A stretch of 42,693 nucleotides of DNA. It comes from a virus. Shown piece by piece: positions 7,705 through 23,037 of this stretch. Made by a program: the position numbers and the translations under genes. The first letter of the stretch is position 1, and each line of letters begins with the position of its first letter. The stretch is from positions 1 to 42,693 of the IMG/VR virus record IMGVR_UViG_3300006922_003355. One strand, given 5' to 3'. The notes below the pieces were generated by a model. It saw only the letters and a program-made list of their open reading frames with translations, had not been told where the DNA came from and made no database searches.

Positions 7705-9663
7705 ATGCCGCTAAGAGTACGCCGTGGTACAAATGCTGATAGACAAACCATTACACCTGATCAGGGTGAACTGATATATACAACTGACACTAAGAAACTT
7801 TATATTGGAGACGGTATAAATGCAGGAGGTCTTCCAGTTACTGGTGATCCGTTCTTGGGTATAGATAATATTGTTGAGGATACATCCCCCGAACTAGGAG
7901 GAAACTTGTCGCTTAATAGTTTTACTATTAACGGAACAGGGTCAATTAATATTCAAGGCGGAGTTGACGCTACAAGTTTAAGTTTGCAATCAGGAGAAGG
8001 TACTGGACTAGGTAGTAATTTAATACCTACAAATAACAATGCCTATATACTAGGTAATGCTAATAAGCGTTTTAAAAACCTATATACTACTAACATTAAT
8101 ATCGACGGTGAGTTTAATGCTGTAAGTGTAAATGCAGACATAGTAGGCGACGATAGTACTATTCTTATAGATTCAGCAACATCAAGAATTACTACATCGG
8201 CATTAGCACAAGCAAGTGCAACTGACGGCCAAGTCTTAAAGTGGAATAACGGCACAAGTACTTGGACAGCATCAGATCAGTCTTTATCACTATTATCTGA
8301 TGTTGATGCAACAAATCCACAGAATAACCAGGTTCTTACATGGAATTCAACTGCCGGTAAATGGCAGGCACTAGCAGCACAAGGTGGTGGCGGCGGAGGC
8401 GGAATAGCCTTAACAGATTTAAGTGCAGGTGTTGGTTTACAATATGATAACACAACCGGCGAGTTTATATTAAACGCAAGTGTCAACGATTTAACAGATG
8501 TTACTACAACTAGTCCAACAGCAGGTCAAACACTTGTATGGAACCCTGGTTCTAATAGTTGGATTAACGAAGCTGTACCTGCTCCAGTATTTGCAAATAT
8601 TACTGATATTGATTTATCGCTTGGTGTATTAGATAATGATTTTTTACAATACGATAGTGGTTCATCTAGTTGGAAAGCAAGGACTTTAGATTTAAACGAC
8701 ATATCAAATGTTGACCTATCTACTCCGCCAACAGAAGGTCAAACATTAATAGCAGGTTCGGATCTTGTATTTAGACCTGCAACTCCACTTGATTTAGAAA
8801 ATATCGCTACAAATGTTAACCCAGCGGTAACTGCTACACACAATTTAGGTTTATCTAGTAGAAAATGGAGTGAAGTATGGGCAGCAACTATAAACTGTAC
8901 TACACTTATTACAGCAGATATAACTGCTACTGGGACTATATCAGGTAACGTAGTAGGTAACGTAACAGGTAACCTAATAGGTAACAGTGACGGTGCTCAT
9001 ACTGGTACTGTAAACGGTGACGTAACTGGAAGTGTGTTTGGCGATGATTCAACTGTACTTGTAGATGGTGTTGCAAATAGTATTGTTGGTAAAATAAATT
9101 CAACAGACAAGCTAGACGTTACTACAAACGATAATGTAATGGCTACATTAACAGGTAATACAAATTCTGGTGTTACCGGACCAAGAATAGAATTTAATAC
9201 AAGTGACGGAACTGTCGAATCACCGACAGCAGTAGCTGGCTCTACGACTGGTACCCATTTAGCTGAAATGCGCGGGTTAGGATATGACGGTACAGATTAT
9301 TCAGAAGCTGGTCTTGTAAGAGTTTCAGTTGATCTTGATCAAACTGTTGCAACAGGAGTTGTTCCAGGAAGAGTAGTGTTTATTACTGCAAATAATGCAG
9401 GTAGTCTTGCTAATATTATGACATTTAATAGTGCAGGGAAGCTAGGTATCGGTACTCCGAGACCAGATGAAAAACTTCATGTCAATAACGGTAATGCTAA
9501 GATTGACGGATTTGTTCAGTTTGGATCATTAACATCTACAGAACGTGATGCACTAACACCTGTAAACGGAATGGTTATTTACAATAGTACTAATGATAAA
9601 TTTGAAGGACGTCAAGGCGGCGCTTGGATTAATTTAGACGACGGTACTGCTGCTACACCTTAA
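7705..9663 (+). CDS. Tail-fibre-like virion structural protein, 652 aa
   Basis: Probable receptor-binding or baseplate-attached fibre. The N-terminus MPLRVRRGTNADRQTITPDQGELIYTTDTKKLYIGDG is the short module common at the start of T4-like marine phage fibres and similar to the N-terminal piece of Mtd-type proteins. It is followed by four variants of a 'GQxLxWN...SxSW' repeat (about residues 190-330), a poly-Gly hinge (about 229-235), a GNxx tandem repeat, and an ending with RDALTPVNGMVIYNSTNDKFEGRQGGAWINLDDG that resembles the tip module of many fibres. The composition (Asn, Thr, Gly, Ser rich, almost no cysteine) is typical of beta-structured trimers. It overlaps the convergent radical SAM gene by 11 bases. 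Role as fibre is likely; position in the virion is not known. Confidence 0.8.
   Translation: MPLRVRRGTNADRQTITPDQGELIYTTDTKKLYIGDGINAGGLPVTGDPFLGIDNIVEDTSPELGGNLSLNSFTINGTGSINIQGGVDATSLSLQSGEGTGLGSNLIPTNNNAYILGNANKRFKNLYTTNINIDGEFNAVSVNADIVGDDSTILIDSATSRITTSALAQASATDGQVLKWNNGTSTWTASDQSLSLLSDVDATNPQNNQVLTWNSTAGKWQALAAQGGGGGGGIALTDLSAGVGLQYDNTTGEFILNASVNDLTDVTTTSPTAGQTLVWNPGSNSWINEAVPAPVFANITDIDLSLGVLDNDFLQYDSGSSSWKARTLDLNDISNVDLSTPPTEGQTLIAGSDLVFRPATPLDLENIATNVNPAVTATHNLGLSSRKWSEVWAATINCTTLITADITATGTISGNVVGNVTGNLIGNSDGAHTGTVNGDVTGSVFGDDSTVLVDGVANSIVGKINSTDKLDVTTNDNVMATLTGNTNSGVTGPRIEFNTSDGTVESPTAVAGSTTGTHLAEMRGLGYDGTDYSEAGLVRVSVDLDQTVATGVVPGRVVFITANNAGSLANIMTFNSAGKLGIGTPRPDEKLHVNNGNAKIDGFVQFGSLTSTERDALTPVNGMVIYNSTNDKFEGRQGGAWINLDDGTAATP
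8944..8991 (+). repeat. Four 12-bp tandem repeats within the fibre gene
   Basis: Units at 8944-8955, 8956-8967, 8968-8979 and 8980-8991 each begin GGTAAC and encode a Gly-Asn-x-x tetrapeptide (GNVV, GNVT, GNLI, GNSD). The in-frame repeat allows change in unit number without a frameshift, a common way for fibre shafts to vary in length. Confidence 0.7.
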
Positions 9664-10633
9664 ACTTAGTAACCATTATTTCATCAAGAGTACTACAAAC
9701 TTCTTTACCGCAAATAGTCCATTCCTCTTTAAATAGATCTATTTCTTTTTCAAATATGTTACCAATGATACCTGTGGCAGCACAAGTTCCATACTTTACA
9801 TTTCCGTTAGCTTCTATTAATATTTTTTTATTAACAATACCGCATGTCCAGCCTTTAAACTTGTTTGTTCTTTCTGTTACAAAATTAACAGCATTAGTTT
9901 CAATGTCATTATTTACAGTACAACTTAAATAAGTAGGTTCATCCTGTTCTAAGTTTTCAAGTGTATCTAACTCATCTTTAGTATAATACCCTAGCTGCCC
10001 GTCATCCATTTTTTGCTTGTACCCTTCTAAAAATCTACTCGAAGAATAAGTAGGATTGACTTCCTGTGTTGTTTTATTATATAACGGAAATACAGGCAAT
10101 CTTACAATAGGAGTATTGAGCAACTTTTCTTCTAATTCATCTACTTTATGAAATAATCCTGCTGCCATCATTGCACGGATTTCTACGTTGCCGTTGTTTT
10201 CTTTAATCATATTAACAAACTCAACAACTCTATCAATTTCGGCAAACTCAGGATGAAAACTTATTTTGATATTAATGTTTTTAAATGACTCTTTGCTCAT
10301 ATCATATATTTTTAATGGCAAACTTCCGTTTGTAAAAATGCCCACTCTAATATTATTTTCACCCATCCAGTTAAACCACTTATGTACATCTTTGATCAAG
10401 AATGGCTCGCCGCCTGTAATATAAACTAACACACTTTTATCTGCAGGAACACTATCTCTTATCTTTTTAGCAGCAGCAATTAAGTCTTCTACATTTGGTA
10501 ATTTTCGCTTGTCGATTGCGTGATGATTAGAAGGCTCGCAATAACTACAATCATAATTACACATATTGGTAGGGCGCCAATGCACTATATAATCTTCATA
10601 CCAGTCATATTTTTCTATTTTGTTTATATTCAT
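9653..10633 (-). CDS. Radical SAM enzyme with C-terminal cysteine-rich domain
   Basis: Uses a [4Fe-4S] cluster to cleave S-adenosylmethionine and start radical chemistry. The cluster motif CNYDCSYC is at residues 25-32 and the SAM-contacting TGGEP at 73-77. The last 90 residues contain several cysteines (LSCTV, WTCGI, YGTCAATG, WTICGKEVC) as in SPASM/twitch domains that hold extra iron-sulfur clusters. It is the last gene of the TctA-TctC operon and starts 29 bases inside the ANL gene upstream. Its 326 residues and the ANL partner suggest tailoring of a small activated molecule or peptide, but that is inference. The product is unknown. Confidence 0.85.
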   Translation of the reverse strand: MNINKIEKYDWYEDYIVHWRPTNMCNYDCSYCEPSNHHAIDKRKLPNVEDLIAAAKKIRDSVPADKSVLVYITGGEPFLIKDVHKWFNWMGENNIRVGIFTNGSLPLKIYDMSKESFKNINIKISFHPEFAEIDRVVEFVNMIKENNGNVEIRAMMAAGLFHKVDELEEKLLNTPIVRLPVFPLYNKTTQEVNPTYSSSRFLEGYKQKMDDGQLGYYTKDELDTLENLEQDEPTYLSCTVNNDIETNAVNFVTERTNKFKGWTCGIVNKKILIEANGNVKYGTCAATGIIGNIFEKEIDLFKEEWTICGKEVCSTLDEIMVTKFKV

Positions 10634-11771
10634 CTAATAAATTCTTCCTGTTAATCTTACCTTGGCCTTTTCGTTTAATACTTTCAACATAAAATATTTT
10701 TTCAGGAATTTTATATCTAGCTATTTTTGACTTTAGTAAGTCTAAATCAATTTTACCCACTACTTCTGCATACACAGTATCATACCCAAACACAACTACA
10801 TCAGATGCTCCTGAATCTAACAATGCTTGTTCTACTTCATAAGGCATAATTTTCCAGCCGCCATTTATAATTGTTTCTTTTTTTCTACCTGTTATAAAAA
10901 GAAATCCATCTTCATCTATATGTCCTAGATCTCCTGTTGCAAAATTATTTACAATTATTTCATTATCGATTACTTTACAGTCGATATTATCTAAAACGTA
11001 ACCTACACTGTTGTACTTTTGCGGATAATGCATTATACTAATAGTGCCTATTTCATTTACTCCGTAACTGTCTGTAGTAATACAATTGAAAAACTTTTGT
11101 GCTTCTATTTTAAAGTCTTTATACATAGGTGCGCCAACGGTCCTTATATGGCGTATAGTCATGTTTTCATAAAGCACATTAGGAGACATCATTCCACGTA
11201 GCACATTTGGACTTCCTATAATAAATGTAGGATTTACACTAGGCCAAAATTTCCACGGATCATCTAAAATATAGTATGTTGCTCCTGTTTTATAACATAG
11301 TGCAAATGTTTGAAAGCCTATACAAACCCATAATGGTATAACATTTATAGTGCTGTCATTTTCTGTAATGTTACCATGAATTTGTATATTATTATCTAAT
11401 CCATCTCGGTAGTATTGATCTTCAGTAATTGGTATTATACGATGTTTCTCAGTACTGCCGCTGCTACATATACCTACAACTTCATCTGTGTTACATTGAT
11501 TGTATCGCGGCTGTGGAAGTATATCGTTCCATATATCTATATTATAATAACTAAGCTCATGCTCGGTCATAGTATGGTCTATAATAACAGGGCTACACAC
11601 TTGCATAGCCCCAAAAATTTTAAATACATTCTCAGTATTACTAAAAACTCCAATACGACATGTTTTGTCATAACCAGCTTTTTTTAATTGCTTGGCATAT
11701 TTTTTAGCAGCTTTATCAAACTGAGATTTAGTATATGTTGTTCCGTTTTCGAACACTAAGAAAGGTTTCAT
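10605..11771 (-). CDS. Adenylate-forming enzyme (ANL superfamily), compact 388 aa
   Basis: Activates a carboxylic acid with ATP to an acyl-adenylate, usually passing it to CoA or a carrier protein. Motifs in order: phosphate-binding SSGSTEKHR (103-111), YGVNEIG (236-242), ATGD (278-281), hinge GRKKETIINGGWKIMPYEVE (295-314), and GQGKINRK with the catalytic lysine at 372. All core motifs are present although the protein is about 100 residues shorter than standard acyl-CoA synthetases, mainly at the N-terminus. It overlaps the alpha/beta hydrolase gene by 44 bases. No carrier protein is visible next to it. The substrate could be the carboxylate imported by the neighbouring transporter, which is inference. 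Confidence 0.87.
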   Translation of the reverse strand: MKPFLVFENGTTYTKSQFDKAAKKYAKQLKKAGYDKTCRIGVFSNTENVFKIFGAMQVCSPVIIDHTMTEHELSYYNIDIWNDILPQPRYNQCNTDEVVGICSSGSTEKHRIIPITEDQYYRDGLDNNIQIHGNITENDSTINVIPLWVCIGFQTFALCYKTGATYYILDDPWKFWPSVNPTFIIGSPNVLRGMMSPNVLYENMTIRHIRTVGAPMYKDFKIEAQKFFNCITTDSYGVNEIGTISIMHYPQKYNSVGYVLDNIDCKVIDNEIIVNNFATGDLGHIDEDGFLFITGRKKETIINGGWKIMPYEVEQALLDSGASDVVVFGYDTVYAEVVGKIDLDLLKSKIARYKIPEKIFYVESIKRKGQGKINRKNLLDEYKQNRKI

Positions 11772-12432
11772 TGATATCTTCTTCTATATGATTTAAATAT
11801 TGCCATCTTAATTCTTTATCAAACAATAAATGTGTAGGAGAAGTAGTATGACCATATCGTTCGCTAAGATATTTATGGTTAGGCTTTAATTGAGAAAACT
11901 CATCTGAACTCATTATATTACCCGTTGTATTATAGCGTACCATGTTAAATTCAAAATCAATATCTTCAATCATAAATGCATGATGTGTGTAAGGAAGCAT
12001 ATATTCAGTCAGTGGCGGTTTTTTTAAAAGACTTTTAAATTTTTCATATTTGTATTTTCCTTTATCATTACCACATAAGATTACACTTGCATTACTATAA
12101 TCTACATCTAACATCTCTTGTGTTATTCCCAGTACTCCGGGGTAAAACAAATAATTTTTAACAAACTTTGCATGATTAACAATGCCTAGAAAAGCACCAA
12201 GACTAAACCCTATATGTACTAAATCACCTTTAGGAAAATCTACGTTAAACATTTCCTTAAAAGTAACATCGTAATTATCAGGCTCTTTTTCGCTCCATCT
12301 TATTCGGTCGATGCCATGCGGAGTAAAATAATCTATAAGATGTACATCATATCCTTTACTTTCAAAAAAGTCACGGGCGAAGGTTTCAGCAGAGCCAATT
12401 CCCCCGCTACCATGTGAAATAACAATTTTCAT
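11728..12432 (-). CDS. Alpha/beta hydrolase (dienelactone-hydrolase-like)
   Basis: Likely esterase, thioesterase or lactonase. The nucleophile elbow GFSLGA puts the catalytic serine at residue 77, HGSGG (7-11) forms the oxyanion side, GND (121-123) supplies a candidate acid and HH (150-151) the histidine. The 234 residues fit a small soluble member without a lid. It overlaps the TctC gene by four bases (ATGA) and the ANL gene by 44 bases, so all three are translated together. Next to an acyl-activating enzyme, a thioesterase or acyl-editing role is plausible, but no substrate can be read from the sequence. Confidence 0.75.
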   Translation of the reverse strand: MKIVISHGSGGIGSAETFARDFFESKGYDVHLIDYFTPHGIDRIRWSEKEPDNYDVTFKEMFNVDFPKGDLVHIGFSLGAFLGIVNHAKFVKNYLFYPGVLGITQEMLDVDYSNASVILCGNDKGKYKYEKFKSLLKKPPLTEYMLPYTHHAFMIEDIDFEFNMVRYNTTGNIMSSDEFSQLKPNHKYLSERYGHTTSPTHLLFDKELRWQYLNHIEEDINETFLSVRKRNNIY

Positions 12433-13472
12433 TTAGATGCTAGTTCCATTTTAAATACACTTGCAAGACCTAAAGCGTTTGTATTAAAGTACACAAGGTC
12501 TTCTAAAGCTGATACAGTAACAAAACTCATAAGTGTATCTCTATGTGCATTGCCTTCTGCGCCAATCTTCCATTCGTATTTACCAACCTTCTTTTCTATG
12601 ATTGCTCTGCTTTCTGCATTCAAAGACATTTCAGTTAATGCAGCTTGTAGCTTCTCAGCATTAGGATTACCTCTGTTAACCCATAATGCTTTTTGCATAC
12701 CATCTCTAAATGATTTTACTAGTTTGTAAGCATCATAAAATTCACCGCTTGGTGCTACACCCCAACGATTTTCATATAACTTTTCAAACTGGAAACCAGG
12801 ATAGTTTGGATCGTCAGCATGTGTTCCGTTTTCTTGTAGTATTCCATGATGAAACCAAATTTCTGCATTGTCGTCCGGTGCTACATGCTTTTTGTATGCT
12901 GCTGGATTTTCTCTTGTACCAGTAAGTTCACCACGTCTAAATGCAAGACGTCTTTCACTTCCACTCATACCTTTTACCCATTGCACATTATCTTTAAAGC
13001 ATTTTACATATGCATCCATAGACGTTTGTGGACCACAGATAAGCATTGTCATTGCATATGCTTCAGGTGTCTGTCCGCTACCTGCCGCAAAACTTGGACT
13101 ATTCATATCTTCACCGATACGCTTTCCTGCAATAATATTTAAGTTCATAAGTCCTACTGATTCATATTCACCGTAGTTATAGTCAACTTCTTCTTGTAAG
13201 AATGCAACGCCATTGCCGCCATGTGATACCATAATAACTTTGTCGTCATCTCTCATTTCATTGTGCCAAGCATTAAATCCTGGAATGTCTCTTGCACCTG
13301 GAATGTGCTTAATGTTGATATCTTCACCTAGATATTTTTCTAATTCTTTAGCAACAATTTCTGCCCAGACGCTTGTGCCGCCTCCTGGTTTCTGTGGTAC
13401 TATCATTGTATAATCTGCATGTGCTACAGAAGTTACCATAGCAAACACAAGTCCTAATATTAATTTACGCAT
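12429..13472 (-). CDS. tctC: Tripartite tricarboxylate transporter substrate-binding protein TctC
   Basis: Periplasmic solute-binding protein that delivers a carboxylate to the TctAB membrane complex. The first 19 residues form a clear signal peptide (basic MRK, hydrophobic core, VAHA before DYT), and the mature start YTMIVPQKPGGGTSVWAE matches the TctC binding-loop region. At 347 residues it is slightly longer than the usual 320 or so. The ligand (citrate, tricarballylate, terephthalate-like or other acids in known members) cannot be told from the sequence. It starts inside the last eight bases of tctA. A secreted bacterial binding protein in a phage backbone is unusual. Confidence 0.88.
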   Translation of the reverse strand: MRKLILGLVFAMVTSVAHADYTMIVPQKPGGGTSVWAEIVAKELEKYLGEDINIKHIPGARDIPGFNAWHNEMRDDDKVIMVSHGGNGVAFLQEEVDYNYGEYESVGLMNLNIIAGKRIGEDMNSPSFAAGSGQTPEAYAMTMLICGPQTSMDAYVKCFKDNVQWVKGMSGSERRLAFRRGELTGTRENPAAYKKHVAPDDNAEIWFHHGILQENGTHADDPNYPGFQFEKLYENRWGVAPSGEFYDAYKLVKSFRDGMQKALWVNRGNPNAEKLQAALTEMSLNAESRAIIEKKVGKYEWKIGAEGNAHRDTLMSFVTVSALEDLVYFNTNALGLASVFKMELASK

Positions 13473-14898
13473 AATCTATTTTCCTTTTTGATGTTAGCCC
13501 CCATAGCAATGTTACACCTATTGCAACACATAAGCCGAGGAATATTGGTTTGTGTAACAGTTTTTCAACTGTATAAAGTCCTGCCATTTGTACCGTTAAG
13601 GCTTCTATTCTATCTGCTAGAATAAAAGCAAATAGCAGTGCAGGTCTGCTAAATTTGTATTTCTTTGCTAGTAGTCCTACGATACTACATACTACTAGTA
13701 TAAAGTAATCTTCCCAACCGCCTGTGTATTGTACACATGCAAGCACAATAAAGCCCAACAATACTGGAAAGTAGTATTTGTAGGGTATTTGTGCAATTCG
13801 TGCTATAAGTGGTGTCGTAAACAAGCATATAGCGCCTACAAGCACTGTTGCAAGCATAAAGCCATATAACATACTATCAAAGAACTTTGTGTCCATTGCA
13901 AGCTCTAAGGTACCTAATTCAAAGTCTAAGTATGCAAATAGTCCTATTACAATAGCGGCAAAACTTGCTCCTGGTATTCCAAATAAAACTGTAGGAATCA
14001 TACTTGTTGCCTTTTGTGCGTTGTTAGCACCTTCTGGGCCTATGACACCTTTAATATTTCCGTTACCAAATCTTTCTTTAGGATGACTTGCAACTGTTGA
14101 ACTGTATGCCATCCAGTCTGCAACTGCGCCACCTAGTCCAGGCAAAAGCCCTATAAATGCTCCTATAAATCCGCCACGTAGTGCGTCCCACTTGTTGTGC
14201 CATACAGCCATTATACCTTGCTTAGTCTGTACACCATTTGCTAATTCTGGCATGCTAGTATTAGTACGTTGTTTTAATCCGTCAATTAATTCTGGTATAG
14301 CAAATAAGCCAGCAACTAACGGCATAAGTTGTACACCATCACCTAGGTATTCCCAACCACCTGTCCATCTATCTGCATTTGTGCTTGGATCTACACCTAT
14401 CAGTCCTACAAACAAACCTAAACTCAAAGCAATCATACTTCTAAACCAAAATTTGTTTGTAACAAATGTAACACATACCATTGCTAACATTGTGAATGCC
14501 CAAAGCTCTGGTACACCAAACACCATTATCAATTGTGTATAATAAGGCAACAAAAAGAATGTAAGTGAACCCCATAATAATCCATTAAGTGTGCTTGTAG
14601 TAACAGCAGAACTAATTGCATATGTTGCTTGTCCTTGTAATGCTAACGGAAATCCATCTATCATTGTAGCAGCCGCACTATTAGCACCAGGTATTCCTAG
14701 CAACACACCTGTGTAAGTATCTCCTGTTGTACTAGCAGCGACAACTGCCATTACAAATATTACTGCTAGATACGGATCAGGAAACAGTGTAATAAATGAA
14801 AACACAAATATTAATCCTGTAGTAGCACCTGCGCCAGGCAATATGCCAATAATTAAACCGTAAAACGTACCTGCTAGTAATGCCAATAATGAAGCCAT
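13465..14898 (-). CDS. tctA: Tripartite tricarboxylate transporter large membrane subunit TctA
   Basis: Large permease subunit of a secondary, ion-driven carboxylate transporter. The 477-residue protein is hydrophobic throughout with about eleven or twelve membrane segments. Family hallmarks are visible twice, as expected from the internal repeat: GILPGAGATTGL and GVLLGIPGANSAAATMIDGFPLA near the N-terminus, and GLLPGLGGAVADW with VLFGIPGASFAAI in the second half. It ends with a final segment and KRKIDYA. The small subunit TctB (four membrane segments) is not found next to it or elsewhere in the window. Start at 14898 is supported by AAGGAA. The gene is full-length, without frameshift. Confidence 0.9.
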   Translation of the reverse strand: MASLLALLAGTFYGLIIGILPGAGATTGLIFVFSFITLFPDPYLAVIFVMAVVAASTTGDTYTGVLLGIPGANSAAATMIDGFPLALQGQATYAISSAVTTSTLNGLLWGSLTFFLLPYYTQLIMVFGVPELWAFTMLAMVCVTFVTNKFWFRSMIALSLGLFVGLIGVDPSTNADRWTGGWEYLGDGVQLMPLVAGLFAIPELIDGLKQRTNTSMPELANGVQTKQGIMAVWHNKWDALRGGFIGAFIGLLPGLGGAVADWMAYSSTVASHPKERFGNGNIKGVIGPEGANNAQKATSMIPTVLFGIPGASFAAIVIGLFAYLDFELGTLELAMDTKFFDSMLYGFMLATVLVGAICLFTTPLIARIAQIPYKYYFPVLLGFIVLACVQYTGGWEDYFILVVCSIVGLLAKKYKFSRPALLFAFILADRIEALTVQMAGLYTVEKLLHKPIFLGLCVAIGVTLLWGLTSKRKIDYA

Positions 14899-14927: not shown

Positions 14928-14986
14928 TGAAAGAAACACTTTTTTAGAAAAAAGTGGTATTTTTTTAATAGAAAGTGAAAAAAATT

Positions 14987-15712
14987 ATGAATACACGAAT
15001 TTTTTCGTTAGTCATGCAAAATTTAAAAGATAGCTTTAGTCTACCTAAATATGACGGACTAGAATTAAACCAGCTTAGTATATTAGATGATCTTCCGTTC
15101 ACTCCTGTACGTAGAGAAAAATTTGCACAAGCAATTATGAACGAGTTAGATATAGAACATTTACAACTATCTGGAACTGTTGAACATTTTGTACAATCAT
15201 TAGATAAAATTTATATGAAGCGATTCTTTGGCGAAATTTGGAAACCAAACACAGATGATCATACGTTTAGTGGCTGGAGTATTGTTGATAGAATAAATGA
15301 ACGAAATCCAAAAAATGTTCTAGACTTTGGTTGTGGGTATAATCAATTTAAACCACGTATTAAAAATTTAACAGGAATTGATCCATATAACGAAAATGCA
15401 GACTACATGGTAGATATTTTAGACTTTAATGTAGATGAAAAGTATGATCATATGATTGTATTTGGTAGTTTGAACTTTGGCGATGAAGCGGATATACGCA
15501 CTCGTTTTAAAAAGTTACATTCATTACTAGACGTAGGTGGAAGAATGTATTTCAGAGTTAATCCAGGAATACTTTGGCCTAAAGGTCCTTACGTAGATAT
15601 ATTTCCGTGGAGTTTTGAATTTGCATATGCTCTCGCAAAAGAATACAACTGCAAGTTAGAACAATATAAAAAAGATAGACAACGTTTTTATTTTGAAATA
15701 CTAAAGATGTGA
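14987..15712 (+). CDS. Class I SAM methyltransferase with ACP-like N-terminal domain
   Basis: Transfers a methyl group from S-adenosylmethionine. The SAM-binding motif VLDFGCGYN is at 111-119 and an acidic ID at 131-132 ends the second strand. The N-terminal 75 residues are not part of the methyltransferase fold: LDDLPFTPVRREKFAQAIMNELDIEHL followed by TVEHFVQSL has the spacing and pattern of an acyl carrier protein, but the attachment serine of the DSL motif is replaced by aspartate (DDL, 34-36). I start at the ATG at 14987; a GTG at 14975 would add four residues. It stands alone between two opposite-strand operons and overlaps the tail of the next one by 12 bases. The carrier-like reading is tentative. 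Confidence 0.8.
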   Translation: MNTRIFSLVMQNLKDSFSLPKYDGLELNQLSILDDLPFTPVRREKFAQAIMNELDIEHLQLSGTVEHFVQSLDKIYMKRFFGEIWKPNTDDHTFSGWSIVDRINERNPKNVLDFGCGYNQFKPRIKNLTGIDPYNENADYMVDILDFNVDEKYDHMIVFGSLNFGDEADIRTRFKKLHSLLDVGGRMYFRVNPGILWPKGPYVDIFPWSFEFAYALAKEYNCKLEQYKKDRQRFYFEILKM

Positions 15713-16429
15713 TTTGTTTTTAAATAACTCTTTTACTTTTAAATAGTTATTTTTGTTAACTACAAGTTCTAATTTTTTGCATACTGCTGAGAAGTAATCA
15801 TAATCTAGTATATCATTCACTTCATTTACAATAATATCATCGTCTGTTACATATTCTTTATAATTAGACAACTGCACTTCAAAATCATTACGTAGTGCTT
15901 GTTTCATAGTGATGCCTTGCTCTTTGGCTTTATCTCTATATAAATCTCCTGACAGATAGTCTTTACGTGCTGGGTCAAAATAGTAATAATAACTACTACG
16001 CATCCAACGTTCAATAAGCAAATCAATATCTTCTGGTATAACAACTATATACTTGGCAGGATTAAATAATTTTTTTGTATCGTCTAGTAGTTCATGATTT
16101 GTATATATAAAGTTTTTAGGACTTAGCCTTTGCTTCCATTCTGCAATGTCTTGTGATGTAGTAGTGATATCACGTTGTTCAGCTGTACGCAAAATAGGAG
16201 GAATACGATTTTTATCTGCGCCTTTTTCTGATGCACCTTTAAAACGTTTATTAAAATGCATTTTACTAAATTTATCGTCACCAGGTGAGCAATAAGGCAT
16301 CCAAGGATATTCTCCATTTTGTTCATGGTCATACCATGCAATATTATCACAACTAGCAAGCATACGACCTAACATATGTCCGCCGGCTCCTTGTGGGAAG
16401 TTAATTAAGATACAATTATTTTCGGCCAT
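15701..16429 (-). CDS. Sulfotransferase-like P-loop protein
   Basis: Possible PAPS-dependent sulfotransferase. The N-terminal INFPQGAGGHMLGRML has the form of the 5'-phosphosulfate loop of phage and bacterial sulfotransferase-like proteins, and YIVVIPEDIDLLIERWMRS (after about residue 130) is in the place of the second, 3'-phosphate-binding region. No full set of sulfotransferase residues can be confirmed by eye, so a kinase-like P-loop protein is an alternative. The start is uncertain: MAENN at 16429 gives a 14-base overlap with the ANL fragment gene, while an ATG at 16447 adds six residues. It is the last gene of the operon that begins with the oxygenase. Confidence 0.45.
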   Translation of the reverse strand: MAENNCILINFPQGAGGHMLGRMLASCDNIAWYDHEQNGEYPWMPYCSPGDDKFSKMHFNKRFKGASEKGADKNRIPPILRTAEQRDITTTSQDIAEWKQRLSPKNFIYTNHELLDDTKKLFNPAKYIVVIPEDIDLLIERWMRSSYYYYFDPARKDYLSGDLYRDKAKEQGITMKQALRNDFEVQLSNYKEYVTDDDIIVNEVNDILDYDYFSAVCKKLELVVNKNNYLKVKELFKNKSHL

Positions 16430-17096
16430 AATACCAATATTCTCCATCTACTTTTTTTACTATATCGCCTGTGGCAAACCAATCGTCATATACACAGATA
16501 TCACCTTTAACATATAACTCATGTCTAATTATTTTTGTTTCACAAAACGCAGTGTCGCCCATAATAGTATGTCCGGGCAAATCATGTACTAAAGGACCTT
16601 CCGAAGTAAAAGTTTTGTTTATTGCAATAGGACCAATTTCACTCATACCCCAATTTGCAATAAATGTTGCTCCTTTATCTAAATATCTATTAATACACTC
16701 TGCAGGAACTTTGTCGCTACCACATACAATAATCTTGTCTTGTAAATCTAAATTATTCCAACCTTTAGTTTTGCTTATAGCCAATGCCATCCCTGGTGTA
16801 AGATGTGAATGCGTAAAGTCTTTAATACGACTTACCCATCTATAAGCATTAAAATTTTCTATATAGACATCTGCACCTATTTCGTATCCTGGCAATGTCT
16901 GTGCAAGTAAGCCACCTGCGTGATCTAAATTGCAAACTGTGTAAATTTTACTATTCTTAGTAATTTTTTGTACATCACATGCAATACGATTTGCATGTTT
17001 TATTTTTGTAGGACTTTGAAAGATTGCTTTTGCGGTGCCTGTTGTACCACTAGAACGTATACTAGTCCCGTTTTTTAAAATGTTTTTCAGTTCCAT
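16416..17096 (-). CDS. Cut-down adenylate-forming (ANL) protein, 226 aa
   Basis: Contains only the central part of an ANL enzyme: the phosphate loop SSGTTGTAK (15-23) begins almost at the N-terminus, NWGMSEIG is at 148-155, and ATGD at 208-211. The protein stops at YYGRK, exactly at the hinge, so the whole C-terminal lid with the catalytic lysine is absent, as are the first 120-150 residues usual in the family. The frame is clean and its ends overlap both neighbours (14-32 and 35 bases), so this looks like a maintained small gene and not debris. It may bind an acyl-adenylate or depend on the lid of another protein. Adenylation activity on its own is doubtful. Confidence 0.75.
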   Translation of the reverse strand: MELKNILKNGTSIRSSGTTGTAKAIFQSPTKIKHANRIACDVQKITKNSKIYTVCNLDHAGGLLAQTLPGYEIGADVYIENFNAYRWVSRIKDFTHSHLTPGMALAISKTKGWNNLDLQDKIIVCGSDKVPAECINRYLDKGATFIANWGMSEIGPIAINKTFTSEGPLVHDLPGHTIMGDTAFCETKIIRHELYVKGDICVYDDWFATGDIVKKVDGEYWYYGRK

Positions 17097-17268
17097 CAGT
17101 AATCTTCTTGGCTAATTTATATGGTGTAAAAGCAAATAAAAAAGGAAATATGGCATGTATTGTGCCAGTTATAAAGACTAACAGGGCTAGTATGTTAAAG
17201 TACATAGCATAAAAGAAATGTTTAAAATAATTAGATTGAACTTTTTTAAGATGATTCCATTCTATCAT
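17062..17268 (-). CDS. Small membrane protein, DUF6356-like, 68 aa
   Basis: The start chosen is the ATG at 17268, which overlaps the halogenase stop as ATGA; a longer form from 17295 would begin inside the halogenase. A short amphipathic N-terminus (NHLKKVQSNYFKHFFYAMYF) leads into one long hydrophobic stretch, probably one or two membrane passes, with IHAIFPFLFAFTPYKLAKK at its end. That 'HAxxPFLF..T' ending is typical of small DUF6356 proteins, whose function is not known. The position between halogenase and ANL genes might anchor the pathway at the membrane, which is speculation. Confidence 0.65.
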   Translation of the reverse strand: MIEWNHLKKVQSNYFKHFFYAMYFNILALLVFITGTIHAIFPFLFAFTPYKLAKKITDGTEKHFKKRD

Positions 17269-18338
17269 AACATGTGATCCTTTAATAAATTCCAACTATG
17301 TTTACCCATAAGCCCTTGGTGTCCGTTCTCACTGTAAAAATATATATCATTTACAGCATCTTCTCTATTGTCTTTATAATAATCCCAATACTCTCCTTTT
17401 CTAGTATTGCATGAATACAATGCTTTTATCCATTTATGTATTCCGGTATATGTTTTATTAATTAATCTGTTATATGCATCAGGTTTATCTTCTAGCAAAA
17501 GAAAATTTTTGATTCCGCTTTGCGCCGCAAAGTTTGCAGTGGCATTTAAAGGTTCTATAAATCCAGCACTTAGACCTAAGAATAAAACATTTTCCTTCCA
17601 GGCTTGCTCTGGTATTCTAGTTTCAAATTTAATTACATTTTCATGCTTAACACCTGTTGTGTTTTCAAATTCTTTTATTGCATTGTTTATAGAAATATAC
17701 TTTGAACTAAAAACATATCCATAACTTAATCTTGTTTGCAAACTTATACTCCATAGCCAACCGTTACTTAGAGCTTGCGACTTTGTATAAGGAATGTATT
17801 TACTAGGAGCATTTCCAATTACTGCATAGTCATTTATAAGGAAGTCACTTTTATTATGTACTAATCCTACTTGATCAGAAAGCACACCGTTTTGTCCTGT
17901 AGCATCAATGTAAAATTCTTCCTTATCATATTGATCTATTGTAAACTGTGTATTTACAATTTTAAAATTATCTTGTTGCTCACACCATTTTTGTAATACC
18001 TGACAAAATCCAGGAGCATCTATATGGTAAGCATAAGTTTGATGTCTGTCAGTTTCTAATGCTTTGGGTTCATTTGCAGAATAGTAAAGCCAACTGTTAT
18101 TATCTTTCCAACCAGAAAATAATGTTCCGTATTTAAAATAACCGTTCACTTTGTTTAAAAACTCTTGATCTGACATACCAATTAATTTAGGTATTTCATT
18201 AATTGTAGGGACAGTTGATTCGCCTATTTTCCGTACAACAGTATTTGGATCTCTAAATAATGTAACTTGTTTGTCGGCTTTCAACAAATATAAACATGCT
18301 ATCCAAGCCGCTGTTCCACTACCTATTACATTATACAT
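17265..18338 (-). CDS. Flavin-dependent (tryptophan-type) halogenase-like protein
   Basis: FAD-dependent halogenase family. Residues seen: FAD-binding GSGTAAW (6-12), GESTVPT (39-45), a lysine in NGYFKYGTLF (Lys69) at the place of the catalytic lysine that carries the haloamine in PrnA, WLWSI (194-198) where halogenases have WxWxIP, and FIEPLNATA (260-268) with the conserved glutamate. The proline of WxWxIP is serine here. At 357 residues it is shorter than the 500-residue tryptophan halogenases, as with other compact members. A marine phage halogenase (VirX1 of cyanophage Syn10) has been reported to iodinate many substrates, so a halogenating role is credible. Overlaps both neighbours. The substrate is unknown and could also be a non-halogenating oxidation. 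Confidence 0.82.
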   Translation of the reverse strand: MYNVIGSGTAAWIACLYLLKADKQVTLFRDPNTVVRKIGESTVPTINEIPKLIGMSDQEFLNKVNGYFKYGTLFSGWKDNNSWLYYSANEPKALETDRHQTYAYHIDAPGFCQVLQKWCEQQDNFKIVNTQFTIDQYDKEEFYIDATGQNGVLSDQVGLVHNKSDFLINDYAVIGNAPSKYIPYTKSQALSNGWLWSISLQTRLSYGYVFSSKYISINNAIKEFENTTGVKHENVIKFETRIPEQAWKENVLFLGLSAGFIEPLNATANFAAQSGIKNFLLLEDKPDAYNRLINKTYTGIHKWIKALYSCNTRKGEYWDYYKDNREDAVNDIYFYSENGHQGLMGKHSWNLLKDHML

Positions 18339-18852
18339 ATTTTTCTCTCAATTCAAAATATCTTTCATTATTTAATTTCCATACACTCTGCATAGCATTA
18401 AAAATCTGTTCATCACCAACATACGATACCATGCCGCCTTTTTCCATAGCAGTAAAGCTCTTATGTATCCTATTCATTCTTCCGCTGTTATCTTTATTAA
18501 TATTAGTTGTTATATAAAGAGTCTTTCCTTTTGCAAATTCTATTTGTAAGGGAAGATGATCATATATACCCCAACTCTGCATTTGATATCTATTTAGTCC
18601 CTTCATAGGTCTTGCCCATAATTGCGCTCCTCTATAAAGAGCCCTGTACCCATCTTTAAAAGGATGAATGCCTGTAAGACTTACTATTGTGTTTCTAGTA
18701 TATGTAGCATACCACATACCTCCTTCTAAACACCAGTCCCACCGTAATTCTTTTAGACTACTATTATTTTTATATCCAAATAATGTACATTGTGCAATAA
18801 AGTCTTCTAGTGCCGGTGTAACTTTAGTAAGTTCTTCAGTATAGTATGTCAT
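18331..18852 (-). CDS. Phage protein of unknown function, possibly GNAT-like
   Basis: 173 residues with clear hydrophobic strands and a run of aromatic residues: LRWDWCLEGGMWYATYTRNTIVSLTG, YRALYRGAQLW, LPLQIEFAKGKTLYITTNI, and a C-terminal VWKLNNERYFEL. The order (strand-turn-strand with 'WYATY...IVSLTG', then an arginine-rich helix) is reminiscent of acetyltransferase folds in marine phages, but the acetyl-CoA loop R/Q-x-x-G-x-G/A is not visible, so I do not assign activity. It lies between the oxygenase and halogenase genes, overlapping the first by four bases and the second by eight, and must belong to the same unit. Confidence 0.6.
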   Translation of the reverse strand: MTYYTEELTKVTPALEDFIAQCTLFGYKNNSSLKELRWDWCLEGGMWYATYTRNTIVSLTGIHPFKDGYRALYRGAQLWARPMKGLNRYQMQSWGIYDHLPLQIEFAKGKTLYITTNINKDNSGRMNRIHKSFTAMEKGGMVSYVGDEQIFNAMQSVWKLNNERYFELREKYV

Positions 18853-19469
18853 CTAATAGCCATATGTTCAATAACTCTCATAATTGATTCTTTAGTTGTT
18901 TGTATATTAAGTACTATCCAATAACTATCGTGGTCACCACAATTAAATAAGTGATGTGCTTTTGCAGTGTTTAAGAAATATGCACTTCCTGCATTCCAAG
19001 GCAATACTTTATCTTCAAGAATAAACGTAAATCTAGGATAGTCAAAGTCTAACATAGGTACAATAATTCTAAATGATTCTAATTCAGCACTTTTATAATC
19101 TCTATGCGGAGGGAAATATCCGCCTGGTGGTATCTTTAAAAAGTGCGATCTGCCAACAAAAGGTTGAAAGTGTTCGCATAATTTTTTAATTTCAGGATGT
19201 TCATAAACTGGAGTAGGAACATTAATATCCATCTCCGTAGGCATGGTATTAGGATCTGTAGCGTAAAAAGAATCAAGGTCTGGTTTTCCAGACACTCCGC
19301 CATCTAAGCTAGTTATACTTAATCCCCATCTATTAATTTTTCTATGCGGATTATATTGCACATACTCAAAATTATTTTCAGTCCATTCCACTACAGATAC
19401 TGGATCTTCTATCCGAATCGAAGTTTCTATAAAATCTCCGTAACCAGCTAATGTTAAATATTCAATCAT
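18849..19469 (-). CDS. 2-oxoglutarate/Fe(II) oxygenase, aspartyl-hydroxylase-like
   Basis: Probable non-haem iron dioxygenase that hydroxylates a substrate while turning 2-oxoglutarate into succinate. The metal triad is visible as HRD in GGYFPPHRDY (His122, Asp124) and a distal histidine in AKAHHLFN (172 or 173), with FRIIVPM (133-139) in the double-stranded beta-helix. Length 206 residues is typical. It is the first gene of the - strand operon 19469-15701 and has a GAGGA ribosome site. An amino-acid or lipid A hydroxylase function is possible; neither can be chosen from the sequence. Divergent from the glycosyltransferase gene across an inverted repeat. Confidence 0.75.
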   Translation of the reverse strand: MIEYLTLAGYGDFIETSIRIEDPVSVVEWTENNFEYVQYNPHRKINRWGLSITSLDGGVSGKPDLDSFYATDPNTMPTEMDINVPTPVYEHPEIKKLCEHFQPFVGRSHFLKIPPGGYFPPHRDYKSAELESFRIIVPMLDFDYPRFTFILEDKVLPWNAGSAYFLNTAKAHHLFNCGDHDSYWIVLNIQTTKESIMRVIEHMAIR

Positions 19470-19547: not shown

Positions 19548-20399
19548 ATGATTAATATTGTAGTTACAAGCAAACCGGTAGACGGCCTATTCTATTACAG
19601 TTATGAATACTGTGACATGCTTAATAATGCTGGTTATCCTGCACAGGTTGTTGTTATAACACATCGTAACTTTACTAAAGATGAGTATCTAACTTCAATT
19701 AAAAACAAATATATACATTGTCATAATATTCTTATCGACGATTATGTTCCGGCACTAAATGATACTACACTTATTATGGGGCGTAGTATGATGACACTTA
19801 GTTGGCAGAGTTTTAATGATTATACTGACGTACAAAAACGTATATTATATCGCTTGTTTGACGGAGATGTTATTAGTGTATATTCAGAAAATCATGTAGA
19901 CGGTTATCCCAAGGCTGTTGAATTTTACAATCCTAAACAAATAGTAGATCTATGCGATACAGACGTATACCCTAATGGTGTAGGTGCTCACTTCGAAAAG
20001 ACTATTAACTTTAGCATATACAAGCCTTACAAAGATAACATACAGTTTAAGCATTTATTTCTTGGTACAAATGACAAATACTATGCTAGTGTTGAAAAAG
20101 TTATTGATCAATATCCGGATCACGGTATCTTGACATATGACGCAAAGTATGTTAATGTAAAGCATAATAATATATTTGTACCTGTGGAAAATCTTATGAG
20201 CTTATTTGAAACTTATGTATATACTAAAGAAACTTTTGATCCTGCTCCTCGTATATTTCAAGAGTGCAAGTATTATGGCAAGGATGTAATTTATGAACGG
20301 AAAGATCCGGGAACAGACGGTGGAACTATATATTGGAAGCGTGATATCAAAGAACCGGACATAACTGCAATTTTAGGTGCTGTAAAAGAACTAAAATGA
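19548..20399 (+). CDS. Glycosyltransferase-like protein (GT-B type)
   Basis: Likely sugar transferase. The N-terminus MINIVVTSKPVDGLFYYSYEYCDML is a first Rossmann-like strand and helix, and the C-terminal part (FDPAPRIFQECKYYGKDVIYERK followed by TDGG) looks like the nucleotide-sugar site of GT-B enzymes, with the glutamate and the glycine pair in the right order. At 283 residues it is smaller than most GT4 proteins (350-400). It begins the ten-gene operon, has no ribosome site, and overlaps hldE by ATGA. A transferase using ADP-heptose made by the next two genes is an attractive guess. Class call moderate, donor and acceptor unknown. Confidence 0.55.
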   Translation: MINIVVTSKPVDGLFYYSYEYCDMLNNAGYPAQVVVITHRNFTKDEYLTSIKNKYIHCHNILIDDYVPALNDTTLIMGRSMMTLSWQSFNDYTDVQKRILYRLFDGDVISVYSENHVDGYPKAVEFYNPKQIVDLCDTDVYPNGVGAHFEKTINFSIYKPYKDNIQFKHLFLGTNDKYYASVEKVIDQYPDHGILTYDAKYVNVKHNNIFVPVENLMSLFETYVYTKETFDPAPRIFQECKYYGKDVIYERKDPGTDGGTIYWKRDIKEPDITAILGAVKELK

Positions 20400-21538
20400 T
20401 AAAAGTATTAGTCCTCGGTGATATAATAATTGACAAATACATATACGGTACTAGTACTCGTATAAGTCCTGAAGCACCAGTGCCTGTTGTAACATATAAG
20501 GAAGAAAAAGAATCACTAGGCGGTGCAGGACTAGTATACAACAATCTTAAAAGTTTAGGTGTTAATGTTGAACTATATGAATATGATCAACCAAAGAGTG
20601 TAAAGACTCGTGTGATGTGTGATGGGCATTACGTCACACGTATAGATAACGACTATCACGCAAATGGTGATGAAATATTAGGCGATATACTTAATAAAGA
20701 TTTTCAACAGTACGATTACGTTGTACTAAGCGATTATGCCAAAGGTGTATTATCTCAATCATATGACATTATTAAACACATTAATAAATTTGGTTGTAAA
20801 GTTATAGTAGATCCGAAAGACCACTATACTCTTTACGAAGGTGCTTGGCTTGTCAAACCTAACGAAAAAGAATTTACAGAATTAGACTTTGATCTATGGC
20901 AAGGTAATATTATTGTTACACATGCTGGAAATAATGTACATGCTATTATTGATAAAGAAAGTTATGACATACCTGTAGAAACTTTACAAGTATCAGATGT
21001 TACAGGTGCAGGCGACTGCTTCTTAGCAGCATTTGTATATGGACTTACAAAAGAATATGCTTATAAAAAATGTTTAGAAATTGCTATTAAAGGTTCTAGG
21101 CAAGCAGTACAACATACAGGCACATATACACTTACTATAAGTGACTTAGAAGATTGTATAGTGTTTACTAACGGAGTATTTGATATACTACACAAAGGTC
21201 ATTTTGAGCTCTTAGCAGAAGCAAAAGGACTCGGCACTAAACTAATTGTAGGTATTAATTCAGATGCTAGTGTAAAACGGTTAAAGGGCAGTAGTCGTCC
21301 TATTAATAACCAAGCAAAGCGTATTAGTCAATTAGAGATATTACCGTGGGTAGATCAAGTAGTTGTATTTGATGAAGATACTCCGTACGAATTAATTAAA
21401 GAATTAAAGCCGTACGTAATTGTAAAAGGCGGCGATTATACAGTAGAACAAGTTGTCGGACACGACTTAACTAATGTACATATTGTTCCTACAATAGTAG
21501 GATATTCAACAACAGATATTATAAAAGCAAGTAAATGA
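20396..21538 (+). CDS. hldE: Bifunctional heptose kinase/adenylyltransferase HldE
   Basis: Makes ADP-heptose precursors: the N-terminal PfkB-type kinase phosphorylates heptose-7-phosphate at C1 and the C-terminal domain transfers AMP from ATP to heptose-1-phosphate. Kinase domain: SPEAPVPV (24-31), GGAGLVYNN, and DVTGAGD with the catalytic Asp207. Adenylyltransferase domain: TNGVFDILHKGH (258-269), KGGDYT (344-349) and GYST near the end. It is 380 residues against about 477 in E. coli; the loss is spread over the kinase domain. Overlaps its neighbours by four bases each. GmhA and GmhB, needed for the complete route, are absent, so the host would supply those steps. Confidence 0.92.
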   Translation: MIKVLVLGDIIIDKYIYGTSTRISPEAPVPVVTYKEEKESLGGAGLVYNNLKSLGVNVELYEYDQPKSVKTRVMCDGHYVTRIDNDYHANGDEILGDILNKDFQQYDYVVLSDYAKGVLSQSYDIIKHINKFGCKVIVDPKDHYTLYEGAWLVKPNEKEFTELDFDLWQGNIIVTHAGNNVHAIIDKESYDIPVETLQVSDVTGAGDCFLAAFVYGLTKEYAYKKCLEIAIKGSRQAVQHTGTYTLTISDLEDCIVFTNGVFDILHKGHFELLAEAKGLGTKLIVGINSDASVKRLKGSSRPINNQAKRISQLEILPWVDQVVVFDEDTPYELIKELKPYVIVKGGDYTVEQVVGHDLTNVHIVPTIVGYSTTDIIKASK

Positions 21539-22359
21539 AAATACTAGTTACAGGACACGAAGGATTTATAGGATCAAACATTCTTAAATTTTTAAAAGAA
21601 CAAGGACACGAAGTTGACGGATGGGAATGGAAATCTAATTCTATGCCTGACACTCGAGGATATAACTGGTGTATACATTTAGGTGCTATTAGTTCCACTA
21701 CCTATACTGATGTATACCAAATTTTGAAACAAAATTATCAATTTAGTGTAGATCTTCTACAATTGTGTAAGAAGAGTAATACTAATTTTCAATATGCATC
21801 AAGTGCCAGTGTATACGGAACAACTACTCATTTTACAGAAGACGGATATCTATCTCCACAAAGTCCTTATGCTTGGTCAAAATATTTGTTTGATCAGTAT
21901 GTATCTAAAACTATTAACACTTGTAATATTATTATACAAGGATTTCGATACTTTAATGTATACGGCCCTGGTGAAGAACACAAAGGTAATATGGCAAGTC
22001 CTTATACTAAATTTATAAATCAAGCAAAATATGACGGAGTTATATCGTTATTCGAAAATAGTAATAATTATAAAAGAGACTTTGTATGTGTAGAAGATGT
22101 GTGTATGTTACACACTAAAATGTTTAATAGCACATTTAGTAATATATACAATGTAGGAACCGGAACAGCAACTAGTTTTGAAGATGTTGCACAAACCATT
22201 ATCAAAAAATATAATGCTAAAATTAGATATATAACTATACCAGCAGAGGTAAAAAATCAATATCAAGCATACACCTGTGCTAACTTAGACAAGCTATCTT
22301 CTACAGTTGACATGAACTGGACTACAATAACGGATTATATAAATGACAGAAATTGTTAA
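21535..22359 (+). CDS. hldD: ADP-heptose 6-epimerase HldD-like
   Basis: Short-chain dehydrogenase that epimerises ADP-D-glycero-D-manno-heptose to the L-glycero form. Cofactor motif GHEGFIG (7-13) at the N-terminus, catalytic Tyr112 and Lys116 in SPYAWSKYLFDQY, then FRYFNVYGPGEEHKGNMAS (137-155), YKRDFVCVEDV and NVGTGTATSFEDVAQ, all close to HldD and less like GalE or RfbB. It is 274 residues against 310 in E. coli. It follows hldE with an ATGA overlap, and the cupin gene starts 17 bases before its stop. The pairing with HldE makes the assignment much safer than sequence features alone. Confidence 0.88.
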   Translation: MKILVTGHEGFIGSNILKFLKEQGHEVDGWEWKSNSMPDTRGYNWCIHLGAISSTTYTDVYQILKQNYQFSVDLLQLCKKSNTNFQYASSASVYGTTTHFTEDGYLSPQSPYAWSKYLFDQYVSKTINTCNIIIQGFRYFNVYGPGEEHKGNMASPYTKFINQAKYDGVISLFENSNNYKRDFVCVEDVCMLHTKMFNSTFSNIYNVGTGTATSFEDVAQTIIKKYNAKIRYITIPAEVKNQYQAYTCANLDKLSSTVDMNWTTITDYINDRNC

Positions 22360-22693
22360 AAAGGGTTGGGGTACTGAAAAAATATTTGCTTCTAATAATC
22401 TATATTGCGGGAAATTATTAAACTTTAATCAAGGTTCTAAATTTAGTATGCATCTCCACAAAGAAAAAGATGAAACATGGCATGTGCTTAGTGGTAGCTT
22501 TATACTTAAAACAATTGACACAACTTCTGCAACTATAAATGTAGAAACATTAAATATCGGCGACACTAAGCATATTACTCCAATGCTGCCGCATCAGCTT
22601 ATGTGTGTTGAAGAAGGTACTATAATAGAAGTAAGTACACCAGATAGCACACAAGATAACTATAGAGTTGAAAAAGGCGATAGTCAATTATGA
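22343..22693 (+). CDS. Cupin-fold protein, sugar-phosphate isomerase-like
   Basis: A single cupin domain (116 residues). MHLHKEKDETWHVLSGSF holds the HxH-x-E metal ligands and a second histidine appears in PMLPHQLMCVEEGTIIEVSTP. The pattern resembles the C-terminal part of type II mannose-6-phosphate isomerase/GDP-mannose pyrophosphorylase proteins and small sugar epimerases. It starts 17 bases inside hldD and overlaps the next gene by four bases. It may act on a sugar phosphate in the same pathway, but cupins are too diverse to name the reaction. Start WGTEKIF-type N-terminus (KKGWGTEKIFASNN) is typical of these proteins. Confidence 0.75.
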   Translation: MTEIVKKGWGTEKIFASNNLYCGKLLNFNQGSKFSMHLHKEKDETWHVLSGSFILKTIDTTSATINVETLNIGDTKHITPMLPHQLMCVEEGTIIEVSTPDSTQDNYRVEKGDSQL

Positions 22694-23037
22694 AAATACA
22701 ACCTAAATGTTTGCAATTTGATCGAAACAATAAAGGAGCAGCATATACATCAGACGGTTATATGTTACCATGTTGTTGGATGGACGATCCTCCTGTGCAT
22801 CGGTATGTAACTGAGTGCGGACTAAAGGACGAAGTATTAGCCGTTGAAAATAATAGTTGTTTAGACGACATATTTGTCTCTGACCAATGGGAGAACTTTT
22901 TTCAAACTTTACTAAATGATCCAGAGAATGCATCTTATATGTGTAAAAAGAAATGCGGCATTGATGTAGATATGAAGAAATTAAAGGAAGAAGAAAAACA
23001 AGAAGTAATAGGACAAGCAAATGTCAAGGATTACTGA
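22690..23037 (+). CDS. Stand-alone SPASM-like cysteine-rich protein, 115 aa
   Basis: Reads like the auxiliary iron-sulfur domain of a radical SAM enzyme expressed on its own. Cysteines 7, 28, 29, 43, 57, 85 and 89 fall in the SPASM pattern: an early CxxF, then YTSDGYMLPCCW with the CC pair, a 'LDDIFVSDQWENF' segment as found between SPASM cysteines, and CKKKC near the end. No CxxxCxxC core or SAM site is present. The following gene, starting 17 bases before its stop, is a radical SAM core that lacks such a domain. Together they suggest a split enzyme. It has no homologue with known function that I can name. Confidence 0.65.
   Translation: MKIQPKCLQFDRNNKGAAYTSDGYMLPCCWMDDPPVHRYVTECGLKDEVLAVENNSCLDDIFVSDQWENFFQTLLNDPENASYMCKKKCGIDVDMKKLKEEEKQEVIGQANVKDY

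Follow-up and report, generated by a model that had tools for sequence, protein, structure and literature searches.

Why does viral DNA carry genes for a membrane permease of the TctA type and for a periplasmic binding protein of the TctC type, and could these two proteins work together when TctB is missing? This question is raised by tctA and tctC in what we call the window, which is the whole of the IMG/VR virus record IMGVR_UViG_3300006922_003355 with its 42,693 bases, probably a genome fragment. Our analyses show that the tctAC pair is common in viruses, virus-specific, and nearly absent from sequenced bacteria, and that TctA and TctC are maintained under strong purifying selection. The explanation that we favor, with moderate confidence, is a two-subunit importer of the tripartite tricarboxylate transporter (TTT) type that evolved in viruses and would work without TctB.

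The tctAC pair and its distribution

The permease gene tctA (13465–14898, minus strand) encodes a polytopic protein of 477 residues. Its open reading frame is intact, and the product matches Pfam PF01970 with 312.5 bits (cut-off 28.9, E 4.9e-93) over the entire model (positions 1–422 of 423), which bears out the initial annotation, made from the sequence alone, that a complete TctA is encoded in phage DNA. Both conserved PG motifs are present (PGAGATTG and PGLGGAVADW). The second gene, tctC (12429–13472, minus strand), encodes a protein of 347 residues from a virus-specific family. Standard annotation misses this half of the system: Pfam TctC (PF03401) did not match the window protein, any of 19 family members, or anything in 22 virus records, and the window protein has no PHROG or NCBIfam match either. 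The profile of the TctC family matched BugD weakly (E 0.01). The AlphaFold2 model of the protein (predicted local distance difference test score 87.8) had TctC/Bug structures as its top Foldseek matches, namely 4x9t, MatC (6hke), TphC (7ndr), and BugD (2f5x), with E-values of 7e-10 to 4e-9 and a probability of 1.00 at best, and by this modeled fold the protein is a TctC/Bug solute-binding protein that is divergent in sequence. The N-terminus resembles a signal peptide (approximately residues 1–19, MRKLILGLVFAMVTSVAHA, followed by DYT), and a motif like a signal cleavage site is found near the N-terminus in 125 of 133 proteins of the family. The TctC with signal peptide that had been read from the sequence is thus upheld by its predicted fold and its signal-like start, although PF03401 misses it. 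Components of TTT systems have been encountered in viral sequences before: a tctA domain match was described on SUP05 viral contigs, its role not being known (PMC4164917), and BFVD contains PBP2_Bug_TTT proteins from uncultured Caudovirales phages, which have a fold like that of the phage TctC at 12–16% identity.

As the initial annotation had stated, tctA and tctC head an operon, being its first and second genes on the minus strand. The operon starts at 14898 and has its downstream end at 9653, and it continues after tctC with a hydrolase-like gene, a gene for an AMP-binding ligase, and a radical SAM gene, each gene overlapping with the next. The reading frames of TctA and TctC have 8 bases in common, at the stop of the former and the start of the latter, and a sequence resembling a ribosome-binding site, AGGAAAA, lies just upstream of the start codon in both cases. 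The T4 late promoter motif TATAAATA does not occur at the tctAC operon, and the number of sigma-70-like sites is no higher than in shuffled sequence. Across the window, the motif TATAAATA is depleted (1 seen, 11 expected), which is consistent with an avoidance of stray late promoters. In comparisons with near relatives, the ratio of non-synonymous to synonymous change (dN/dS) was 0.05–0.09 for TctA; it was 0.07–0.17 for TctC and 0.04–0.17 over both genes, and synonymous change thus lies far above non-synonymous change. Both proteins are therefore maintained.

The initial annotation had regarded such a transporter as rare phage cargo. This view is not supported, as the pair is widespread in IMG/VR: a TctC of the viral type is encoded in 288 stretches, and 42 candidate TctA stretches were confirmed with patterns from the window protein alone. 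The carriers are uncultured, mostly marine T4-like phages. None of the cultured phages in INPHARED has a TctC of the viral type, and INPHARED matches to TctA were few, with at most 29% identity, several of them being bacterial or unannotated faecal contigs. Among 84,980 GTDB genomes, a single TctC relative was found, in Marine bacterium B5-7, by a scan with two peptide patterns that more distant cellular relatives could escape; when 369 genomes from the class of B5-7 and 399 from its phylum were searched directly, no further close relative was found. The B5-7 contig carries ordinary bacterial genes together with the same tctAC neighbors that are found in viruses, genes for a methyltransferase-like protein (MT) and a sulfotransferase-like protein (ST), and B5-7 joins the viral clade at its base, in a fork without a clear branching order. 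It may have received the pair from a phage or be close to the donor. The B5-7 cassette extends from approximately 10.3 to 19 kb of a 33.8-kb contig and also includes a 2OG-Fe(II) oxygenase gene and a glycosyltransferase-like gene.

The association of the two genes is strict. Full-length TctA loci number 144, some of them on contigs that were retrieved twice, and they fall into 44 clusters at 95% identity and 16 at 80%, and tctC lies directly downstream of tctA in all 44 of the 95% clusters. Wherever a locus has both genes (142 of 142), these are on the same strand, with a median gap of −7 bases, that is, an overlap. The permease and its putative binding partner are both viral and have been kept together across the 44 TctA clusters.

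The T4-like background that had been noted for the window holds for its kin, some of which carry gp23 and one lineage of which has T4 replication genes on both sides of the pair, while the window itself lacks gp23; at the DNA level, no nearest cultured phage was found for its first 25 kb. Related contigs carry gp23 in 4 of 27 records tested. One lineage has the order gp45-gp44-MT-gp62-regA-tctA-tctC-ST-hsp20-iscU-gp43, and a gp23 of this replication-gene lineage shares 52% identity with its counterpart in Pelagibacter phage HTVC008M. A relative from the window's own lineage, a 146-kb record, encodes a gp23 that is about 70% identical to those of large phages, among them Sinorhizobium phage Phosso and a Vibrio phage of 349 kb. 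Judged by these two unlike gp23 affinities, the pair is therefore carried by at least two distant phage groups. In the HTVC008M-like contigs (L056, L080, L109, and similar ones), genes for Hsp20 and an IscU/NifU-like scaffold protein lie between tctC-ST and the DNA polymerase gene. Two cassette-bearing virus records, L273 and L331, have IMG identifiers (2747842453 and 2651870089) that are unlike metagenome identifiers, and their hosts may be recorded.

Absence of TctB and the bacterial sister group

The absence of TctB that had been noted for the window extends to its relatives. With PF07331, TctB was found in none of 22 virus records (the window and 21 relatives of up to 328 kb), with positive controls that worked, and a profile of the TctB-like fused domain described below found nothing in 23 virus records in a search that had no positive control. 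An open reading frame of TctB size with four predicted membrane spans was not seen in the window or in ten related loci. In some relatives, conserved proteins of 76–90 residues with two membrane spans are encoded downstream of tctC (L016, 13158–13388; L022, 13167–13406; L116, 11016–11288), and these have no counterpart in the window.

The bacterial relatives indicate how this situation may have arisen. When 399 Pseudomonadota genomes were compared with the viral TctA profile, most TctA proteins scored about 150–220 bits, and a distinct set of proteins with 650–680 residues reached 300–327 bits. These proteins have approximately 170–190 extra residues at the C-terminus with about four predicted spans, and an alignment of this extension with stand-alone TctB covered 144 columns and had a probability of 97%. 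The viral TctA ends at the junction where the sister proteins run on into the TctB-like domain. In the TctA tree, the viral proteins form a single clade (support 100/100), which answers the question of a viral clade raised initially, and this clade is sister to twelve of the fusions with a support of 98/94. Another TctA-TctB fusion branches outside the viral clade and the sister fusions; as an extended protein thus exists outside both groups, a loss in the virus line is favored. Because the phage TctA stops where the TctB domain begins in the sister group, the viral lineage probably lost its TctB domain. The second subunit gives independent agreement: the best non-viral TctC matches in the 399 genomes, with up to 75 bits, are the proteins encoded beside these fusions, and the pair therefore descended together. 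One further TctA-TctB fusion passes Pfam TctB; the fused TctB-like domain was missed by Pfam TctB in both scanned proteins (L139 and L141).

The gene neighborhoods of the sister group give a hint at its substrates. The sister loci contain a gene for 4-oxalomesaconate tautomerase (NCBIfam 495 bits, cut-off 440), and some also carry genes for TcuA, TcuB, or CHA aldolase. As these genes adjoin the transporter genes, tricarboxylates are suggested as substrates of the sister group. The fusion subgroup L139–L152 and L168–L177 is regularly found beside the tautomerase gene and LysR-like regulators, at times also with TcuAB.

Compared with the TTT family as known from bacteria (TC 2.A.80; Salmonella TctABC, Bordetella BctCBA), the phage system has in common the TctA motifs, a Bug-type binding protein, and a single operon. 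The gene order in the family is tctC-tctB-tctA, whereas the phage order is tctA-tctC without tctB; the phage system furthermore differs in that its binding protein lies outside Pfam TctC, in that it is phage-borne, and in that MT- and ST-like genes are attached. The bacterial fusions with their tctC are the nearest kin of both phage subunits. The second PG motif of their TctA closely resembles that of the phage protein, and GGGTxxW in most TctC proteins is common to both. In contrast to the phage pair, they have the TctB-like C-terminus, a GGGTD motif in most TctC proteins where the phage has GGGTS, and a mostly reversed gene order. Archaea are known to have TctA with neither TctB nor TctC, and TctAB fusions are rare but known (PMC5812351).

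The four-gene cassette and the possible role of the transporter

Two genes recur around tctAC, namely those for MT and ST. MT is found beside tctAC in 37 of the 44 TctA clusters and ST in 32, the latter share being inflated by the inclusion of ST-anchored loci. A scan of IMG/VR with ST yielded 497 relatives, and the 75 new loci anchored on ST contain TctA or TctC in 66 cases and MT in 70; most of the others end near ST. The gene orders include ST-MT-A-C, MT-ST-A-C, MT-A-C-ST, A-C-MT, and A-C-MT-ST, as well as forms with MT inverted, and therefore the cassette genes stay together while they rearrange. Accessory genes beyond MT and ST vary between lineages. Both activities are weakly assigned: MT matches PF13489 below the cut-off, 6 of 17 ST members match Sulfotransfer_3 (best E 1.3e-4), and Foldseek gave nothing below 0.001 for ST, with the sulfotransferase 3rnl at a probability of 0.47. 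In the literature, of which most subscription journals were outside our coverage, no description of the paired system or of the four-gene cassette was found. Phages thus appear to have built an uptake cassette of their own.

Most known phage uptake genes contribute a single component to a transporter of the host. The PstS protein of cyanophages is likewise a phage-borne periplasmic binding protein and is assumed to improve the nutrient supply in the course of infection (PMC5083919), but it is a single subunit that needs the ABC transporter of the host, whereas tctAC brings its own permease. We infer that the phage TctC would be made in the infected cell, exported via Sec, and folded into a Bug-type binding protein in the periplasm, where it could catch a small carboxylate-like solute and pass it to the phage TctA, which would then move it inward as an ion-coupled symporter. 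This transporter would run without TctB, as the TctB-like domain, which TctA of the bacterial sister group carries as a fused part, was probably lost in the viral lineage. The import of a carboxylate can reasonably be expected of a member of this family, and a tri- or dicarboxylate would be our prior for the substrate, taken from the sister group. The imported compound may feed the co-encoded enzymes, which are MT-like, in most relatives also ST-like, and in the window include carboxylate-activating AMP ligases. If the transporter works in this way, it is the virus that determines which solute enters the infected cell. The system also provides a natural test of whether TctB is needed in TTT systems, an open question for the family.

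Several points weigh against this importer or against details of it. The Asp of the GGGTD motif, found in most TctC proteins of the bacterial sister group, is a Ser in the phage TctC, and the second binding loop of the viral TctC is fixed as GARDIPGF; these two features speak against simply carrying the substrate over from the sister group, and the phage TctC may bind a different one. The viral branch in the TctA tree is long (2.69 changes per column), and long-branch effects could have influenced the sister placement, which calls for caution on its exact position. The role of TctB is not known, and DctQ, the analogous subunit of TRAP transporters, is essential (PMC5812351); by this analogy, the AC pair might be non-functional on its own. 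An unlinked tctB is possible since all virus records are probably fragments, and a very divergent TctB could escape detection, TctB being poorly conserved.

An alternative is that the phage subunits join a host TctB or take the place of TctA and TctC in the TTT complex of the host, altering its substrate range. We consider this unlikely. It would fit the lack of TctB in the virus records, and B5-7, the sole bacterium with a pair of the viral type, encodes three TctB domains at other genomic sites, but each of these is encoded beside, or fused to, a divergent TctA of its own. The pair furthermore occurs in several phage lineages whose hosts may lack TTT systems. The initial annotation had named two options, a host TctB or an AC pair; the AC pair is favored, and a need for a host TctB is not, since TctB of the bacterial sister group is fused to TctA and a loose host TctB would have no obvious docking history. 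Just as unlikely in our estimate is a cassette that serves modification, in which TctAC would import a dedicated precursor for a phage-specific small molecule or for a surface or nucleotide modification. MT, ST, and, in the window, the AMP ligases, the halogenase, and radical SAM enzymes are candidate modifiers, the recurrence of MT and ST in several gene orders fits this idea, and in the window lineage tctAC is set among AMP ligases, halogenase, and hydroxylase-like genes. The accessory genes other than MT and ST, however, differ by lineage, the two recurring activities are themselves weakly assigned, and this idea overlaps with the importer that we favor, from which it differs in purpose only. 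A more far-reaching proposal, which we put forward tentatively and with clearly less confidence than the importer as such, unites both aspects: phages would have evolved the ST, MT, TctA, and TctC genes as an uptake-and-modification cassette that forms a lineage of its own and runs a TctB-less TTT transporter, which across distant T4-like and jumbo-type phages would import a specific carboxylate for a phage-specific modification needed during infection.

Two further explanations are less probable still. Phages are known to encode exclusion proteins, and TctA and TctC, both envelope proteins of phage origin, could act in superinfection exclusion or as a decoy without any transport; we regard this as very doubtful, because the conserved permease motifs, the strong purifying selection, and the strict pairing fit transport, and the anti-phage defense models of PADLOC do not match TctA or TctC. 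A known defense system was rejected as a candidate for lack of such a match. The chance that the genes are host DNA, owing to a misassembly or a wrong classification of the contig, is negligible. The TctA family is bacterial in origin, and the initial annotation had named evidence for a bacterial contig as a possible objection, but the window is itself a virus record, many related contigs carry the pair, some of them with gp23, and one lineage has it between gp44/gp62/regA and gp43. GC content at third codon positions is 0.247 in TctA and thus close to that of phage genes (0.258), and the pair is nearly absent from genomes. Host contamination was therefore ruled out by the viral context and this near-absence, and a TTT-type importer of two viral subunits remains the explanation that we prefer.

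Further genes in the window

The operon continues downstream of tctC, on the minus strand, with the gene of an alpha/beta hydrolase-like protein of 234 residues (11728–12432), which overlaps tctC by 4 bases, has no Pfam match, and contains a GFSLGA motif read from the sequence. The fourth gene encodes the AMP-binding, carboxylate-activating ligase (10605–11771; PF00501, 65 bits) and the last one the radical SAM protein (9653–10633; PF04055, 44.6 bits). The latter also matches viperin models modestly (pVip E 1e-11), which probably reflects a shared superfamily only. The MT gene, for a protein similar to class I SAM methyltransferases (14987–15712, plus strand; PF13489 E 0.003, under the cut-off), is divergent from tctA; its ATG at 14987 is common to relatives, and the open reading frame as listed begins at a GTG at 14975. 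Beside it, on the minus strand, lies the gene of a P-loop-like protein (15701–16447) that has no Pfam match and occupies the same place in relatives of the window lineage. Compared with the ST family, hhalign gave 14% for this protein, and it is a possible stand-in for ST.

A second block of cargo upstream of tctA, likewise on the minus strand, comprises a second, shorter AMP-binding protein (16416–17096; PF00501, 40 bits), a DUF6356 protein of 77 residues (17062–17295; PF19883, 40.8 bits), a tryptophan-halogenase-like flavoprotein (17265–18338; PF04820, 197.7 bits; phrog_2928), and an aspartyl/asparaginyl-hydroxylase-like protein of 206 residues (18849–19469; PF05118 E 8e-4, just under the cut-off). 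Between the latter two, a protein of 173 residues (18331–18852), with no function assigned and no Pfam match, is conserved in the island of the relatives (30 loci). With its AMP-binding and hydroxylase-like neighbors, the halogenase-like gene resembles a small natural-product cluster.

Radical SAM genes are unusually many in the window (at 9653, 23021, 23803, 26830, 31528, 35099 with B12-binding, 39528 with SPASM, and 40651), and other biosynthetic cargo accompanies them between 9653 and 42656. At 20396–26101 and 30017–31531, there are genes of sugar-nucleotide type, for PfkB with a cytidylyltransferase, an NAD-dependent epimerase, and a DegT aminotransferase, and there is also a gene for a Nol-like carbamoyltransferase; together they suggest a separate pathway of surface or base modification.

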